Below, piece by piece: positions 22,550 to 41,558 of a DNA stretch of 64,000 nt. Under the pieces are notes generated by a model. It was not told the DNA's origin. It worked only from the letters and a program-made list of their open reading frames with translations, and searched no databases. Source of the DNA: Bifiguratus adelaidae (lineage: Eukaryota > Mucoromycota > Endogonomycetes > Endogonales); contig MVBO01000018.1 in the NCBI GenBank assembly GCA_002261195.1, forward strand, positions 117,797 through 181,796, read 5' to 3'. A program made the translations under genes and the position numbers. How positions within the stretch are numbered: position 1 is the stretch's first letter; every line of letters begins with the position of its first letter.

Positions 22550-24046
22550 CTAGTGTCCGTTCACCTGAATGGTCTTGGGGTCAAAACCAGGCATGGGGAA
22601 GGAACGGGCAAATTCTTGCACTTCCTTCTTCAATTGAGCAATGTCTTGATTGCCTTCAAGAGCAGCGACGAAGTCCTTCATCATCTTGGATCCGCATTTT
22701 GTCTGAACATCGGAGGCGATTTGAACGGTGCGGTGCAAGAATTCGCCGACCTTGACCATGTCTTCCTCCTTGAAAGAGCGGGAGGTAAGAGCGGCCGTAC
22801 CGAGACGGACACCACCAGGAGTGACGGCAGATTTGTCACCGGCGATGGAGTTCTTGTTAATGGTAATGTCGACTATCTCGCAGATACGCTCGACCTTGGA
22901 GCCAGTCAATTTTTGAGGCTTAAGATCCCAAAGAATAAGGTGATTCTCGGTGCCATCGGTAGCCATCTTGTAGCCATAGTTGCGCAAAGTCTTTGCGAGG
23001 GTCTTTGCGTTAGCACGAACTTGAATGGCGTATTGTTTGAATTCGGGAGTGGCGACTTGCTTCAAGGCGACGGCGATTGCGGCAATCGTGTTATTGTGAG
23101 GTCCACCTTGGCAAGAGGGGAAGACGGCTTGGTTGACACGGCCCTCAAGGTCATCGCCCTTGTCGCGGCGGAAGAAGATGAGACCGGCACGAGGACCACG
23201 GAGAGTCTTGTGAGTGGTGGTGGTGACGACGTCGCAGAACTCGAACGGGTTGGCAGCCTCTTTGGAAGCGACGAGACCAGATATGTGAGCAATGTCGGCC
23301 ATCAAATAAGCGCCGTGTTGGTCAGCAACCTTGCGAAGACGAGCGTAATCCCATTCACGAGGATAAGCAGAAGCACCACAGATGAGAAGCTTGGGACGGA
23401 AAAGAGCTGCATTCTCCTCAAGGCGATCGTAGTCAATGTAGCCAGTGGTCTGATCAACTTGATACGGCATCGATTGGAAGTAGATGGAGGAAGAAGAGAT
23501 CTTCTTCTTGGCGGTTTGATAGCCGTGAGTCAAATGACCACCCGAAGGTAAATCCAAACCCATCAAGCGATCTTGAGGTTGGATTAAGGCAGTCAAAGCA
23601 GCAAAGTTGGCTGTGGAACCAGAGTAAGGTTGAACATTGACACCCCACTTCTCGGCATCAAGATGGAAAGCAGTCAAGGCGCGCTTCCGGCATAGGTTCT
23701 CCACTTGATCAATGTATTCGTTACCACCGTAGTAACGAGCACCGGGCAAACCTTCCGAGTACTTGTTGGTCAAGGCAGAACCGTTAGCCTCCATGACAGC
23801 TTGAGAGGTGAAGTTCTATGTTCAACATGAGTATCCATGCGTACAAACGTAAAATCCGCGACCTACTTCGGAAGCAATAAGCTCAAGACCAGAGAACTGA
23901 CGATACTTTTCTTGTTCAATTAGAGCATAGATCTCGCTATCCTCCTCTTGAAGAGGGGTGTTGAGACAGGTATTCTAGATGACAGATAAGCAAATAGTCT
24001 CCAGTTTACCAAGCATACATACCCAGGAATCGCAAGGTTTGGCCAT
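22550..24046 (-). CDS. SHM2: Serine hydroxymethyltransferase, cytosolic type
   Basis: PLP enzyme interconverting serine plus tetrahydrofolate with glycine plus 5,10-methylene-THF, the main entry to one-carbon metabolism. MAKPCDSW begins at 24046; after two introns come [20 protein letters not shown] and [55 protein letters not shown], and [20 protein letters not shown] with the PLP-binding Lys in [11 protein letters not shown]. The C-terminus is [15 protein letters not shown]. There is no presequence, so it is assigned to the cytosol (inference). Most of the protein lies in one 414-codon exon. The strong codon bias of this exon creates a long spurious antisense ORF. Confidence 0.96.
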
Positions 24047-28172: not shown

Positions 28173-28555
28173 ATGAGACTTGCCACACGAATAGAGCAGG
28201 AGGAAGCGTCTAAATATGCCATGAAAGGTTTTGCTATTGGGGCTGCCAAGTGGGGAGCCGTCGGAGTCATCGCTGCTTCTGGTTTAAATATCGTCAATCC
28301 ATGGTTTCGAAGGACCGGTCTGCAATACAAGGTGAGTCTGCACGTATTCCCTCGGAACGTATTGACATCTATTAGTTTTATCTCGTCATGGCTGCGGCAC
28401 TCGGAGGAGGGGCCCATAGTGCTGATCGCTATTTGGTCAACTTTGAGCGACGAGGACGAAGAAAGCAACTTGAAGCAACAAAACGGGCTCGATATGACGC
28501 TTTCTACGGCAAAGAGGTGTTTGCTACGGAGGCAACTCAACCTACAACTGCTTGA
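28173..28555 (+). CDS. Small conserved-looking membrane protein, likely mitochondrial
   Basis: Two exons encode a protein of about 111 residues. MRLATRIEQEEASKYAMKG leads into a hydrophobic stretch GFAIGAAKWGAVGVIAAS. WFRRTGLQYKFYLVMAAALG spans the splice junction, after a 45-bp intron, and forms a second hydrophobic stretch. A basic C-terminal tail follows (DRYLVNFERRGRRKQLEATK) and ends QPTTA, TGA at 28553-28555. The 'MRLAT...A..G...G' opening with two short membrane segments resembles small conserved fungal inner-membrane proteins, but no named family is claimed. It sits in a run of mitochondrial genes. Confidence 0.7.
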
Positions 28556-28737: not shown

Positions 28738-29397
28738 TTATTCCATATTCTTTGCTCCCATTTCAGACTCGTGCAAGAACCAGATCCGCTTCTCGGTCTC
28801 ATTGATGAAATCCTCCAGCAAGGACGTCGTCGCCACATCCCCTTTGGAGCTACAAATCTCATGAACCTTGCGTTGCTCTTTAAGCAACGTCATGTTATCG
28901 TTGATGAGGTTCTGAAACATGTCTTCCGGCTTGACGTACATGTCGTTATCATCCTTGATGGATTGCAAGGAGGCGATATGCGACACAGATCGGATCGTCG
29001 TACCGCCAATACGACGCACTCGTTCAGCGAGTGGATCGACCGATCCCAAGACTGAATCACTTTGTTCATCCAGCAATAAGTGATAGTCGCGAAAGTGACT
29101 GCCGGATACTAGAGACGAGGTTAGCGTCAATGGTGATATGGACATGGACTACTTGCAATGCCAGTGATAGTTTTTGTTCTTGATGAATAAGGCAAAGGTA
29201 TCGGCAATCAATCCATTCACTGCATTCGATATCTCTTGCACATTACTGGCATTCAAATCGGTGGGTGTGGCCAATTGACGGGGTGGCTTCTGAGTATGAA
29301 CATTGACCTTGGGAGCAGACATGACGGAGGCAATAAATGGGCGGTAAACGAGAGGAACTGTCGTTGTTCGCTTCAAGAGTGTAGTTGAAAAGAACAT
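28738..29397 (-). CDS. Dps-family mini-ferritin with probable mitochondrial presequence
   Basis: 203-residue protein. MFFSTTLLKRTTTVPLVYRP is basic, Ser/Thr-rich and lacks acidic residues, as expected of a mitochondrial presequence. The Dps domain follows: NAVNGLIADTFALFIKNKNY, then HWHLSGSHFRDYHLLLDEQS and DPLAERVRRIGGTTIRS, with the spaced His-x11-His-x3-Asp pattern that forms the inter-subunit ferroxidase centre, and LLEDFINETEKRIWFLHES at the C-terminus. Dps dodecamers oxidise and store iron and remove peroxide. The single intron (29109-29156) uses a GC donor; a GT donor 4 bp further would break the frame, so the GC-AG junction is supported. A shorter product starting at the internal Met 'MSAPKVNVHTQ' would be cytosolic. 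Dps is mainly bacterial. Confidence 0.88.
29109..29156 (-). other. GC-AG intron in the Dps gene
   Basis: Donor GCAAGT, acceptor CTCTAG, 48 bp. Only this junction joins the two conserved halves in frame (HWH to SGSHFRDYH), giving 612 coding bases. Confidence 0.7.
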
Positions 29398-29722: not shown

Positions 29723-31751
29723 CTATTGCTTGTTGGAACCTTGGTTATCGTGATCAACCACATTTTCATCCTTGGGTTGTTCAGCACCGCTGTTGGCGGC
29801 GTTTTGGCGGTAGACAGCCTCGAACAATTTGAGAGACGCTTGTTGCAAATCATAAGTCTCCTTCTTCATCACCTCAGGGTCGGCGTTTTCGCCCTGGCCG
29901 ATGACCTCACGCAACTTGCTGATTTGTTGGCGAATCTTTTCAGATTCGGCCATGTCCAATTGCTTCTCGAAATCAGACATATTCTTCTCCGTCTCTTGGA
30001 TGATGCTCTCAGAAGTGTTGGTTTGCTCAATTACAGCCTTACGCTTGGCGTCAGACTCGGCAAATTGTTCGGCTTGCTTGAGCATGTCCTCAATCTCGTT
30101 GTTGGAAAGACCACCGCTGGCAACAATAGACATGGATTGATCGCGACCGGTAGCCTTATCCTTGGCTCCGACATTGACAATACCATCGGCATCAATGTCA
30201 AATGACACCTCGATTTGAGGAACGCCCTTAGGGGCAGGGGCGATGCCGGTCAAGTTGAACTCACCGAGCAACTTGTTGTCCCGGACAAGTTCACGTTCAC
30301 CTTGGAAGACCTTGACTTGAACTTGAGTTTGGCCATCAGCAGCAGTGGAAAACACTTGAGACTTCTTGGTGGGAATGGTAGTGTTGCGGTTGATCAATCG
30401 GGTGAAGACACCTCCGAGGGTCTCAATACCCAAGGAAAGAGGGGTAACATCCAACAAGAGAATGTCAGTTACGGAACCAGCGAGGACACCACCTTGAATA
30501 GCAGCGCCAATTGCAACAGCCTCATCGGGGTTCACACTTTTACCAGGCTCGCGACCAAAGACAGACTTGACAGTTTCGACGACCTTGGGCATACGGGACA
30601 TACCTCCGACCAAAACAACGTCTCCGATCTCACTAGTGGTGACACCAGCATCCTTGATGGCCTTTTGACAGGGAGAGATGGTGCGCTTGATGAGACCGTC
30701 GACAAGTTGCTCATACTTGGCACGAGTCAACTTCATGTTGATGTGCTTAGGGCCAGTGGCGTCAGCGGTGATGTAAGGAAGGTTGATATCAGTTTGAACG
30801 GTGGAAGACAATTCAATCTTGGCCTTCTCGCAGGCTTCACGGATACGTTGAATGGCCATGCGGTCCTTGCCCAAATCGAGACCTGACTCCTTCTTGAACT
30901 CGGCGACCACGTGCCCGACCAAAGTACCGTCGAAATCCTCGCCACCGAGAGCGGTATCACCGTTGGTAGACTTGACTTCGAAAACTCCATTCTGAATTTC
31001 GAGAATGGAGATATCAAAGGTACCACCTCCCAAATCGTAGACAGCGACAACCTTGTCACCAGCCTTATCCAGACCGTAGGCGAGAGCCGCGGCGGTAGGT
31101 TCGTTGATGACACGGAGCACCTCCAAACCGGCGATCTTACCGGCGTCCTTGGTTGCCTGACGTTGAGCGTCGTTGAAGTAAGCGGGAACAGTGATGACGG
31201 CGTGGTTAGCCTTCTTACCGAGGTAGCCTTCGGCTGTCTCCTTCATCTTTCCGAGGACAAAAGCACCTATCTGAGAAGGCGAGTATTTCTGACCACGAGC
31301 TTCCACCCAAGCGTCACCGTTAGTGTGCTCGATGATCTTGAATGGTACTGACTTTTGATCGTGTTGAACAGCGGGATCCTTGTATTGACGACCAATCAAA
31401 CGCTTCGCCGCGTAAATGGTATTTTCGGGGTTGACGACAGCCTGACGTTTAGCGGCTTGACCGACCAACAACTCTCCATCTTTGGTGAAAGCGACAATAG
31501 AAGGTGTCGTACGCGCGCCTTCAGCGTTTTCAATCACACGAGCAGACTTGCCCTCCATGACGGATACACACGAGTTGGTGGTACCCAAATCAATACCAAT
31601 GACCGGGCCATTGATGTTTTGGCTGTACGCCCGTCTAAGACCAAGAGCACCTCGCTACAACAAGAGTAAATATTGTTTCATTATATAAGGCAGATCCACT
31701 TACGTTAGCATACAGCGACGTCCTCGTAGCAAGTCTAGCAACCTTATACAT
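29723..31751 (-). CDS. SSC1: Mitochondrial Hsp70 (Ssc1/mortalin)
   Basis: ATP-driven chaperone and import motor of the mitochondrial matrix. Exon 1 encodes a presequence start [16 protein letters not shown]; one intron later [20 protein letters not shown] leads into the ATPase domain with [17 protein letters not shown], the Hsp70 phosphate-1 motif. Other signatures: [36 protein letters not shown] and [18 protein letters not shown]. The substrate domain includes [19 protein letters not shown] and ends in a polar tail GSNKQ, unlike the EEVD of cytosolic Hsp70. TAG is at 29723-29725. Large antisense ORFs here are by-products of codon bias. Confidence 0.96.
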
Positions 31752-38949: not shown

Positions 38950-39311
38950 TCCATGTTTGTCTATGCAATTGTACTTGTCTCGTGGAATACATTAAGAGCC
39001 TTCTAGCTAAGTGGACTATGATGCGGTATCCCGTTGGCCGTTGGAGAAGATGAGAACAAATGCTATCATAAAGTTTGTCGATCATTTCCTTGTATGGGAA
39101 AACGTGCGCCAACTTGAGCTGGCGAGCGTCAGAACTGCCATCCAAAGGCGCCTTGTCTTGCCTATCGGCCGCGCGTGCGGTGTTACGCGATATTGGTTAG
39201 TCTCGACCGCAGGCTGTGAATGCTCTTTCTCTTGCGGTTGATATCGGGAGCGGCTATCGCTGGTATACAAGGTTGTTCCACTGGTTTAGATTGATAAGCC
39301 AAAGGTTGCGT
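38950..39311. other. Intergenic region before the GH89 gene
   Basis: 362 bp between same-strand genes. In-frame upstream Met at 39216 could extend GH89, but the hydrophobic signal sequence begins at 39312. No other element seen. Confidence 0.35.
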
Positions 39312-41558
39312 ATGACCTGGTTAAGACGGTTCGGTGTCTTGGCGCTCTTATGGTTTGCGGGTACTGCCGTGTCGCTGTCTACTGCGGGGATCGAGGCGTT
39401 GGTAGCTCGTCGCCTACCCCAGCTTGCCGGCAAGTTTCAGTTTAAACTCACGAGCTTCTCTGCACGGAACACGTCCGGCTACGATGCGTACATCGTCTCC
39501 TCGGTGGGCGACAAAGTCAAGGTGTCTGCCGAGACCCTATCAGGACTAAACCGCGGCTTGTACGCCTATCTTACGGAAGTGGCGGGTGGAGACATCTACT
39601 GGACCGGGAGCTACCTGGATGTGGCTAATGCTCCTCCGGTCCACCATACTCTGACGGGATCGAGTATCGTCAAGTGGAGATACTACTTCAATACGGTGAC
39701 CTTTTCTTATACGGCAGCGTTTTGGGACTGGCAAGACTGGGAGCTTCAACTGGACTGGCTCGCGCTTCGAGGCGTCAACTTGCCGCTCGCATGGGTAGGA
39801 TATGAAAAGACGCTCGTAGACACCTATCGCTCGGTGGGATTGACCGATACTCAAATCTCGACTTTTCTCAGCGGGCCAGCTTTCCAAGCTTGGAATCGGT
39901 TCGGCAATATCCAAGGGTCTTGGAACGGAACATTGCCCATGTCTTGGGTCAACGATCAATTTACACTGGGCAAGCAGATTGTCAATCGTATGGTCGAACT
40001 CGGAATGACACCAGTGATGCCTGCTTTCACCGGATTCGTTCCGAGAGCGTTCCACGAGTTCATCAATTCGACCAACCTGGTCAACAGCAGTCAATGGAAT
40101 GGATTTCCCGCCGAAAACACATACGATACCCTCTTGGAGCCACAGGATGCTCACTTTGCAAAGATGCAGCATTTCTTCGTTACACGGCAAAAGGAGGATT
40201 TCGGCAACGTCTCGAACATTTATACCATTGATCAGTTCAACGAGTTGACACCCGCGTCCGGAAACCTTACATACTTGGCCACCGTCTCCAACTCGACCCT
40301 CGAATCTCTGAAATGTGTTGATCCGAACGCGATATGGATGATGCAAGGATGGCTCTTTTTCAACGAAGAAACGTTCTGGACGAACGAACGAATCCAAGCG
40401 TTCCTTGGTGGCGTATCCAACAACAGTGACATGTTGATCTTGGATTTGTATAGCGAGGTCCAACCACAATGGCAACGTACCCAATCATACTTTGGCAAGA
40501 ATTGGATCTGGTGCTACTTGCACGATTACGGAGGCAACATTGGACTTTATGGGAATGTGCACAACGAAACGGTGAATCCTGTGCAGGCGCACGCTGCGAG
40601 TCCAAGCATGGTGGGAATGGGCATCACCATGGAAAGCCAGGAAGGCAATGAGATGACTTACGACTTGTTCCTCGATCAAGCATGGTCAACGACACCCATT
40701 GACACGGTTGCCTTTGTGCAGGAGTGGGCTCAGCGACGATACAAAGGACAGGCTCCGGCATCTGTATTGGAAGCGTGGGAAATTCTTCGTACCTCGGTCT
40801 ACAGCAACAACAATACCAATATTCCTGCAGTGTCGAGGAGCATACTGGAATTGGCGCCGGATGTCTCGGGCCTCATCACCTCAGGTCCGAGGAATACGCA
40901 GCCAACTGCACTGAGCTACGATCCGCAAGTACTGATCAAAGCCTGGCGACTGCTAGCCAACGCTGCGTCTGCTCAAAGGGATCTGCTCGAGATTGAAACC
41001 TTCCACCATGATCTCACCGATGTCACTCGACAAGTCGTAGCCAATGCTTTCATCCCTGCGTATGAGCACCTAATATCGATCTGGAGCGCGACCGGCGCAA
41101 CAAGTGCGAGCATCCGCAAGGCGGGCCAGAATTTGACCGATATCCTGACCACGTTGGACAATGTCCTGTATACCAGCCCCGACTTTTTGCTCTCTCGATG
41201 GATCTCAAAAGCTGTGGCCTGGGCTAAGGGATCAAGCCAAACTGAAGCCTACTATGAGTACAATGCTCGCAATCAAATTACGCTTTGGGGTCCCGAAGGA
41301 CAAATCAATGACTACGCTTCCAAGGAATGGGCTGGTCTGGTGGGACAGTATTACAAGAGGCGCTGGGAGCTCTTCATCAGGTATCTGGCTACTACCACGC
41401 CGCAGACGTACAATGCTACTGTGTTCGGTGCCACGGTGTACCAGTTTGAGCAAGCTTGGAATAGGCAACGATGGTCAGGACCCATATCGACCAAGGGCAA
41501 TTTATTGCACATTATTCACAGTGATCCCTTGTTAAAGTCATTGATAACTTTAATATAG
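39312..41558 (+). CDS. GH89 alpha-N-acetylglucosaminidase (NAGLU type), secreted
   Basis: Single-exon, 748-residue enzyme. MTWLRRFGVLALLWFAGTAV is a signal peptide. The GH89 fold is visible in SSVGDKVKVSAETLSGLNRG, YFNTVTFSYTAAFWDWQDWE and LDWLALRGVNLPLAWVGYEK, FGNIQGSWNGTLPMSWV, and GMTPVMPAFTGFVP. Catalytic Glu positions lie in YTIDQFNELTPASG and GITMESQEGNEMTYDLFLDQ (human NAGLU has matching acid/base and nucleophile Glu). It releases terminal alpha-linked GlcNAc. Unlike its neighbours it has no intron. It stops at TAG 41556-41558 with no disabling change. Compared with human NAGLU (743 residues) length is normal. Confidence 0.92.
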   Translation: MTWLRRFGVLALLWFAGTAVSLSTAGIEALVARRLPQLAGKFQFKLTSFSARNTSGYDAYIVSSVGDKVKVSAETLSGLNRGLYAYLTEVAGGDIYWTGSYLDVANAPPVHHTLTGSSIVKWRYYFNTVTFSYTAAFWDWQDWELQLDWLALRGVNLPLAWVGYEKTLVDTYRSVGLTDTQISTFLSGPAFQAWNRFGNIQGSWNGTLPMSWVNDQFTLGKQIVNRMVELGMTPVMPAFTGFVPRAFHEFINSTNLVNSSQWNGFPAENTYDTLLEPQDAHFAKMQHFFVTRQKEDFGNVSNIYTIDQFNELTPASGNLTYLATVSNSTLESLKCVDPNAIWMMQGWLFFNEETFWTNERIQAFLGGVSNNSDMLILDLYSEVQPQWQRTQSYFGKNWIWCYLHDYGGNIGLYGNVHNETVNPVQAHAASPSMVGMGITMESQEGNEMTYDLFLDQAWSTTPIDTVAFVQEWAQRRYKGQAPASVLEAWEILRTSVYSNNNTNIPAVSRSILELAPDVSGLITSGPRNTQPTALSYDPQVLIKAWRLLANAASAQRDLLEIETFHHDLTDVTRQVVANAFIPAYEHLISIWSATGATSASIRKAGQNLTDILTTLDNVLYTSPDFLLSRWISKAVAWAKGSSQTEAYYEYNARNQITLWGPEGQINDYASKEWAGLVGQYYKRRWELFIRYLATTTPQTYNATVFGATVYQFEQAWNRQRWSGPISTKGNLLHIIHSDPLLKSLITLI

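Follow-up and report, generated by a model that had tools for sequence, protein, structure and literature searches.

On balance we favor the view that a nuclear, intron-bearing gene of Bifiguratus adelaidae, a soil fungus (Mucoromycotina, Endogonales by taxonomy), encodes a Dps whose ancestor, a dps gene from bacteria, was acquired by Mucoromycotina and was also kept in Umbelopsis; judged by homology, its product would be a dodecameric detoxifier of Fe2+ and H2O2, part of which has about an even chance of reaching the mitochondria. The gene lies on the minus strand of the window (the whole 64,000-nucleotide stretch of DNA analyzed), where two exons running from the ATG at 29397 to the end of the stop codon at 28738 yield a Dps of 203 residues, in precisely the interval given by the preliminary description.

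Exon 1 (29157..29397) holds codons 1–80 and the first base of codon 81; its frame passes H78-W-H80, meets a TAG and continues in a different frame. A scan for splices (GT or GC donors, an AG acceptor, introns of at least 40 nt) returned four open solutions, only one of which, a GC-AG pair at 29156..29109, preserves the HWHxSGSHFRDYH spacing; the joined product reads HWHLSGSHFRDYHLLLDEQ, spaced as in fungal and bacterial relatives alike. The other three (one GC and two GT donors, with the acceptor at GGCAG) shorten the interval between the two ferroxidase histidines, and were rejected because of the residues lost there. We therefore read the interruption as most probably an intron of 48 nt with GC-AG borders (29109..29156; donor GCAAGT, acceptor CTCTAG, and a branch-site-like GCTAAC picked out by eye), followed by exon 2 at 28738..29108, stop codon included; the preliminary description had mentioned one intron but no GC donor. 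A search of the B. adelaidae genome with P0003 (a relative from a JGI metagenome) found no Dps besides the window gene. Facing the 3′ end of the gene is a small two-exon reading on the plus strand (28174–28555, about 112 residues) that has no Pfam match.

The product contains the four-helix ferritin-like domain of Pfam family PF00210 (Ferritin; residues 59–193, 92.8 bits against a cut-off of 24.5, E = 2.4e-26). In a sequence search of the PDB, the best 60 of 69 matches were Dps-type proteins or Dps-based chimeras (top match 3iq1, 5.2e-20), as judged by their names; NCBIfam yielded three Dps models, all below their own cut-offs. The five ferroxidase ligands, located by alignment with computed coordinates, are His78 (29164..29166), His90 (29080..29082) and Asp94 (29068..29070) together with two from the other subunit, Asp105 (29035..29037) and Glu109 (29023..29025), all on the minus strand; we take them to be equivalent to H51, H63, D67, D78 and E82 of the E. 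coli protein, and they are invariant across a six-row alignment of the window Dps and its five closest fungal-type relatives. Domain, PDB matches and retained ligands together bear out the preliminary description of this DNA, which had proposed a Dps domain with spaced His/Asp ferroxidase residues. The fold was judged on P0002, an Umbelopsis relative with which the spliced window protein aligns over the whole domain: its model, with a mean pLDDT of 82.1, is built of four long helices (23–54, 60–86, 115–142 and 146–174) and a short B–C helix (95–101, in a stretch with pLDDT of about 70), and lacks a fifth helix, and a Foldseek search with it returned Dps-type chains or a Dps derivative for the best 50 of 1034 PDB rows, led by Thermoleptolyngbya Dps1. 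A basic N-terminal tail that binds DNA is a trait of certain Dps proteins only; the 41 residues that precede the LATPTDL motif in the window Dps include six Lys/Arg and no acidic residue.

Iron storage and PF00210 are common to Dps and the eukaryotic 24-mer ferritins, which have an intra-subunit ferroxidase site and a fifth helix; in B. adelaidae the two kinds are separate genes. A Pfam search of the genome located four ferritin places, namely the window Dps, a bacterial FtnA-type gene on C113 (whose best PDB matches are bacterial and archaeal ferritins) and eukaryotic-type genes on C281 and C251 (L003 and L004), both multi-exon with exons read by eye, the joined C251 reading matching ferritin heavy chains at 1.9e-40. 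The FtnA-like gene (minus strand of C113, 1435–2103) is a second bacterial-type ferritin and apparently has an intron of its own. Three further ferritin genes rule out Dps as the sole ferritin of the fungus, and the preliminary expectation that the host would lack ferritin has to be given up; with ferritins of both FtnA and eukaryotic type in the genome, Dps supplements ferritin and does not replace it. Animal mitochondrial ferritin, an iron protein that does reside in mitochondria, is a 24-mer ferritin and not a Dps. It is named in a table of PMC11719527, a source that also cites David and Easterbrook (1971) on the ferritin of Phycomyces, so that fungal ferritin has long been known; two ferritin genes are described from Lichtheimia in PMC8065604.

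We weighed three further readings of the gene. Contamination of the assembly by a bacterium or endosymbiont, a reading to which the roughly 60% identity to bacterial Dps might lend color, deserves practically no credence: besides the intron in the gene itself, the contig carries as upstream neighbor a mitochondrial-type Hsp70 (29723..31654, minus strand), which marks it as eukaryotic and nuclear, and an SHMT frame (22550–23812) that is 100% identical to a B. adelaidae protein, with Phycomyces, Apophysomyces, Umbelopsis and others following at 85%; GC content is flat across the window (46–51%), and relatives occur in three Umbelopsis species on contigs of up to 1.88 Mb. On intron, SHMT and Hsp70 we reject contamination, and from intron and flanking genes the Dps gene sits integrated in the host chromosome, in agreement with the preliminary description of a nuclear gene split by one intron. 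It is scarcely more credible that a broadly inherited eukaryotic ferritin has been mistaken for Dps, the identical Pfam family notwithstanding, given the Dps ligand set, the Dps-type PDB and fold neighbors and the existence of eukaryotic-type ferritins as separate genes on other contigs; a grouping with broadly inherited ferritin, raised in the preliminary description, is not what the sequence, PDB and fold neighbors indicate. That the gene is a decaying, functionless copy we regard as very improbable: its branch is fairly long (0.67 in the 80-row tree and 0.79 in the 42-row tree described below) and no B. adelaidae protein appears among the best 120 of about 8000 Dps matches in either of two lists, from which the gene may simply be unannotated, but the frame is open and the five ligands and splice signals are intact. 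Elsewhere in the window (39201–41558, plus strand) lies an alpha-N-acetylglucosaminidase in one long open frame with all three NAGLU Pfam domains.

The closest relatives among the listed matches (best 120 of about 8000) are proteins of Umbelopsis isabellina, U. vinacea and U. nana, at 60–64% identity, together with P0003, followed by bacterial-type sequences at about 60%. The 177-residue Dps-like proteins of Umbelopsis (P0001, P0002 and P0005; also 60–64% identical to the window Dps) probably stem from the same acquisition as that of Bifiguratus, and P0002 is 82–86% identical to P0001, P0003 and P0005; a Dps private to B. adelaidae is excluded by their existence. P0003 was called as a single ORF and so is apparently intronless, unlike the window gene. 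One further close relative, the eukaryote-like protein P0019 (Logan assembly; 52–57% identity), differs by an insert of 28 residues, beginning with V and ending with K, which as far as the protein can tell would fit a retained 84-nt GT-AG intron at a position other than that of the window gene. P0121, of 363 residues, apparently comprises two Dps domains in a row, of which one is truncated and the other full. Bacterial Dps (for example from the uncultured cyanobacterium L005, Scytolyngbya P0018 and Ktedonobacterales L011) have the ferroxidase ligands and the LATPTDL and HFRDYHLLLDEQ motifs in common with the window Dps and are about 53–63% identical to it among the matches listed; the window Dps differs in being a nuclear eukaryotic gene with an intron. 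In a prokaryote collection, at least 577 of 599 pattern-matched stretches encode Dps relatives, of which 80 were retained (best identity 60%); they derive from cyanobacteria, Rokubacteria, Chloroflexota, many Alphaproteobacteria, one archaeal bin and others.

In all three trees that we built, the window Dps nests among bacterial sequences, which upholds the transfer from a bacterium already proposed and makes bacterial ancestry of the fungal Dps firm at the level of sequence. A FastTree analysis of 247 rows places the six fungal-type rows in one clade (support 87) and joins them with L005 and P0025 in a set of eight (support 97). The two careful trees are subsets of these rows, and the two-domain P0121 was excluded from every tree. 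With 80 rows, the window Dps falls inside a crown of 47 (six fungal-type and 41 other; support 100/98), where the fungal-type rows form part of an unresolved fan and not one clade, being united in 10% of 200 bootstraps; an AU test on the same set does not reject a single fungal-type clade (p = 0.325). The focused tree of 42 rows recovers a single fungal-type clade (97/77) and groups Bifiguratus with Umbelopsis (99/93), but this support is not independent of FastTree since the rows were chosen after the FastTree result was known. A single transfer is likely, though less firmly so than bacterial ancestry. As to the donor phylum, L005 and P0025 are nearest in the FastTree analysis, and neither careful tree fixes it. 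SHMT of Jimgerdemannia, Calcarisporiella, Mortierella, Rhizopus and Rhizophagus is present in the same database, while no protein named from these five genera stands in either Dps list (best 120 of about 8000 each, mostly unnamed rows), which suggests, short of proof, a patchy spread of Dps.

The predicted compartment of the protein depends on where translation begins. Residues M1–V25 (29323..29397, minus strand; MFFSTTLLKRTTTVPLVYRPFIASV) form a candidate mitochondrial presequence, both by composition (25 residues, none acidic and three basic, 28% Ser/Thr, 48% hydrophobic) and by virtue of a counterpart in P0019, and the end of this leader is overlapped by RPFIASVMSA (29314..29343, minus strand), an R-10-like cleavage motif under what we assume to be the definition of that motif. 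The leader is hydrophobic and basic where the bacterial Dps tail is hydrophilic: among 189 non-fungal tails (from 241 rows, presumed bacterial, after 52 with a tail shorter than 15 residues or a missing anchor motif were dropped; some locus tails are over-extended open frames, the longest of 316), 24 are acid-free and none combines the absence of acidic residues with at least 30% hydrophobic ones. Such a make-up is not special to the leader, because the Umbelopsis proteins, which unlike the window Dps have none, share it in their 14-residue tails (acid-free, 36–43% hydrophobic). The P0019 leader, of 42 residues, is likewise acid-free and basic. Neither leader gives evidence of an amphipathic helix, as the helical moment is reached by 762 of 2000 shuffles for the window Dps and by 1840 of 2000 for P0019. 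The basic, Ser/Thr-rich composition described preliminarily holds up, and the leader is in addition acid-free and rich in hydrophobic residues; its amphipathicity is not above chance.

Initiation might instead occur at M26, an internal in-frame Met (29320..29322, minus strand) adjoining the position of the P0019 Met before KVNV, in which case the leader would go untranslated and Dps would be cytosolic (or nuclear) like the leaderless Umbelopsis proteins, which begin at about the equivalent place; we consider this a serious contender, if somewhat short of an even chance. The M26 ATG (29322) has a G at −3, an acceptable context, and is preceded by 30 nt of which 77% are pyrimidine, compared with an A at −3 and 47% pyrimidine for the ATG at 29397. 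The codon score of the leader, lying between coding and non-coding, is non-committal, and of 1159 open stretches of 25 codons that begin with ATG in the window, 54 (about 5%) are equally leader-like; nor does the openness of the leader say much, because the same frame stays open before 29397 and contains three further ATGs there (29541, 29460 and 29412). An untranslated leader is harder to reconcile with its acid-free, basic and hydrophobic character over 25 residues, with the R-10-like motif, and with the comparable leader of P0019 that ends at a roughly homologous Met. Under leaky scanning, M1 would start a mitochondrial product and M26 a cytosolic one, as would be permitted by the purine at −3 of both in-frame ATGs and by the internal Met that P0019 also retains behind its leader (MSNTQKVNV; the window has MSAPKVNV); only two sequences bear a leader, however, and we think such a dual product rather unlikely. 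Translation from 29397 would provide the presequence-like leader, and whether at least some of the Dps product is imported into mitochondria is, from sequence, about an even bet.

By the account of Dps given in PMC7762939, the 12-mers use mainly H2O2 to oxidize Fe2+ where subunits meet and retain what is formed, and the DNA affinity of Dps is attributed to a basic N-terminal tail. By homology, a dps gene of bacterial origin, having entered Mucoromycotina and been retained in Bifiguratus and Umbelopsis, would specify a hollow 12-mer whose Fe2+-binding sites are shared by two subunits and in which the iron is oxidized, preferentially by H2O2, and kept in ferric form, such that both Fenton reagents would be removed together. 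The long form from 29397 would carry its presequence-like leader and some of it may enter mitochondria, and the in-frame Met after the leader could yield a short cytosolic form. A more ambitious picture, which we hold to be quite doubtful, is that a mini-ferritin protecting the bacterial nucleoid has been moved into fungal mitochondria, there to scavenge iron and peroxide beside the respiratory chain and perhaps to coat mtDNA, while initiation at the internal Met would provide another form for the cytosol.

A 2020 review describes this kind of Dps as known only from prokaryotes, and our full-text literature search (titles and abstract openings, with most subscription journals outside its scope) found no report of a fungal Dps. 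If the present reading is true, an intron-bearing eukaryotic Dps, present in both Endogonales and Umbelopsidales within Mucoromycotina, would mean that Dps is workable under eukaryotic control, as a peroxide-driven iron detoxifier in a fungus equipped with ordinary ferritin as well; for that very reason, a special role of Dps, be it in peroxide defense, in mitochondria or at DNA, would be directly testable.
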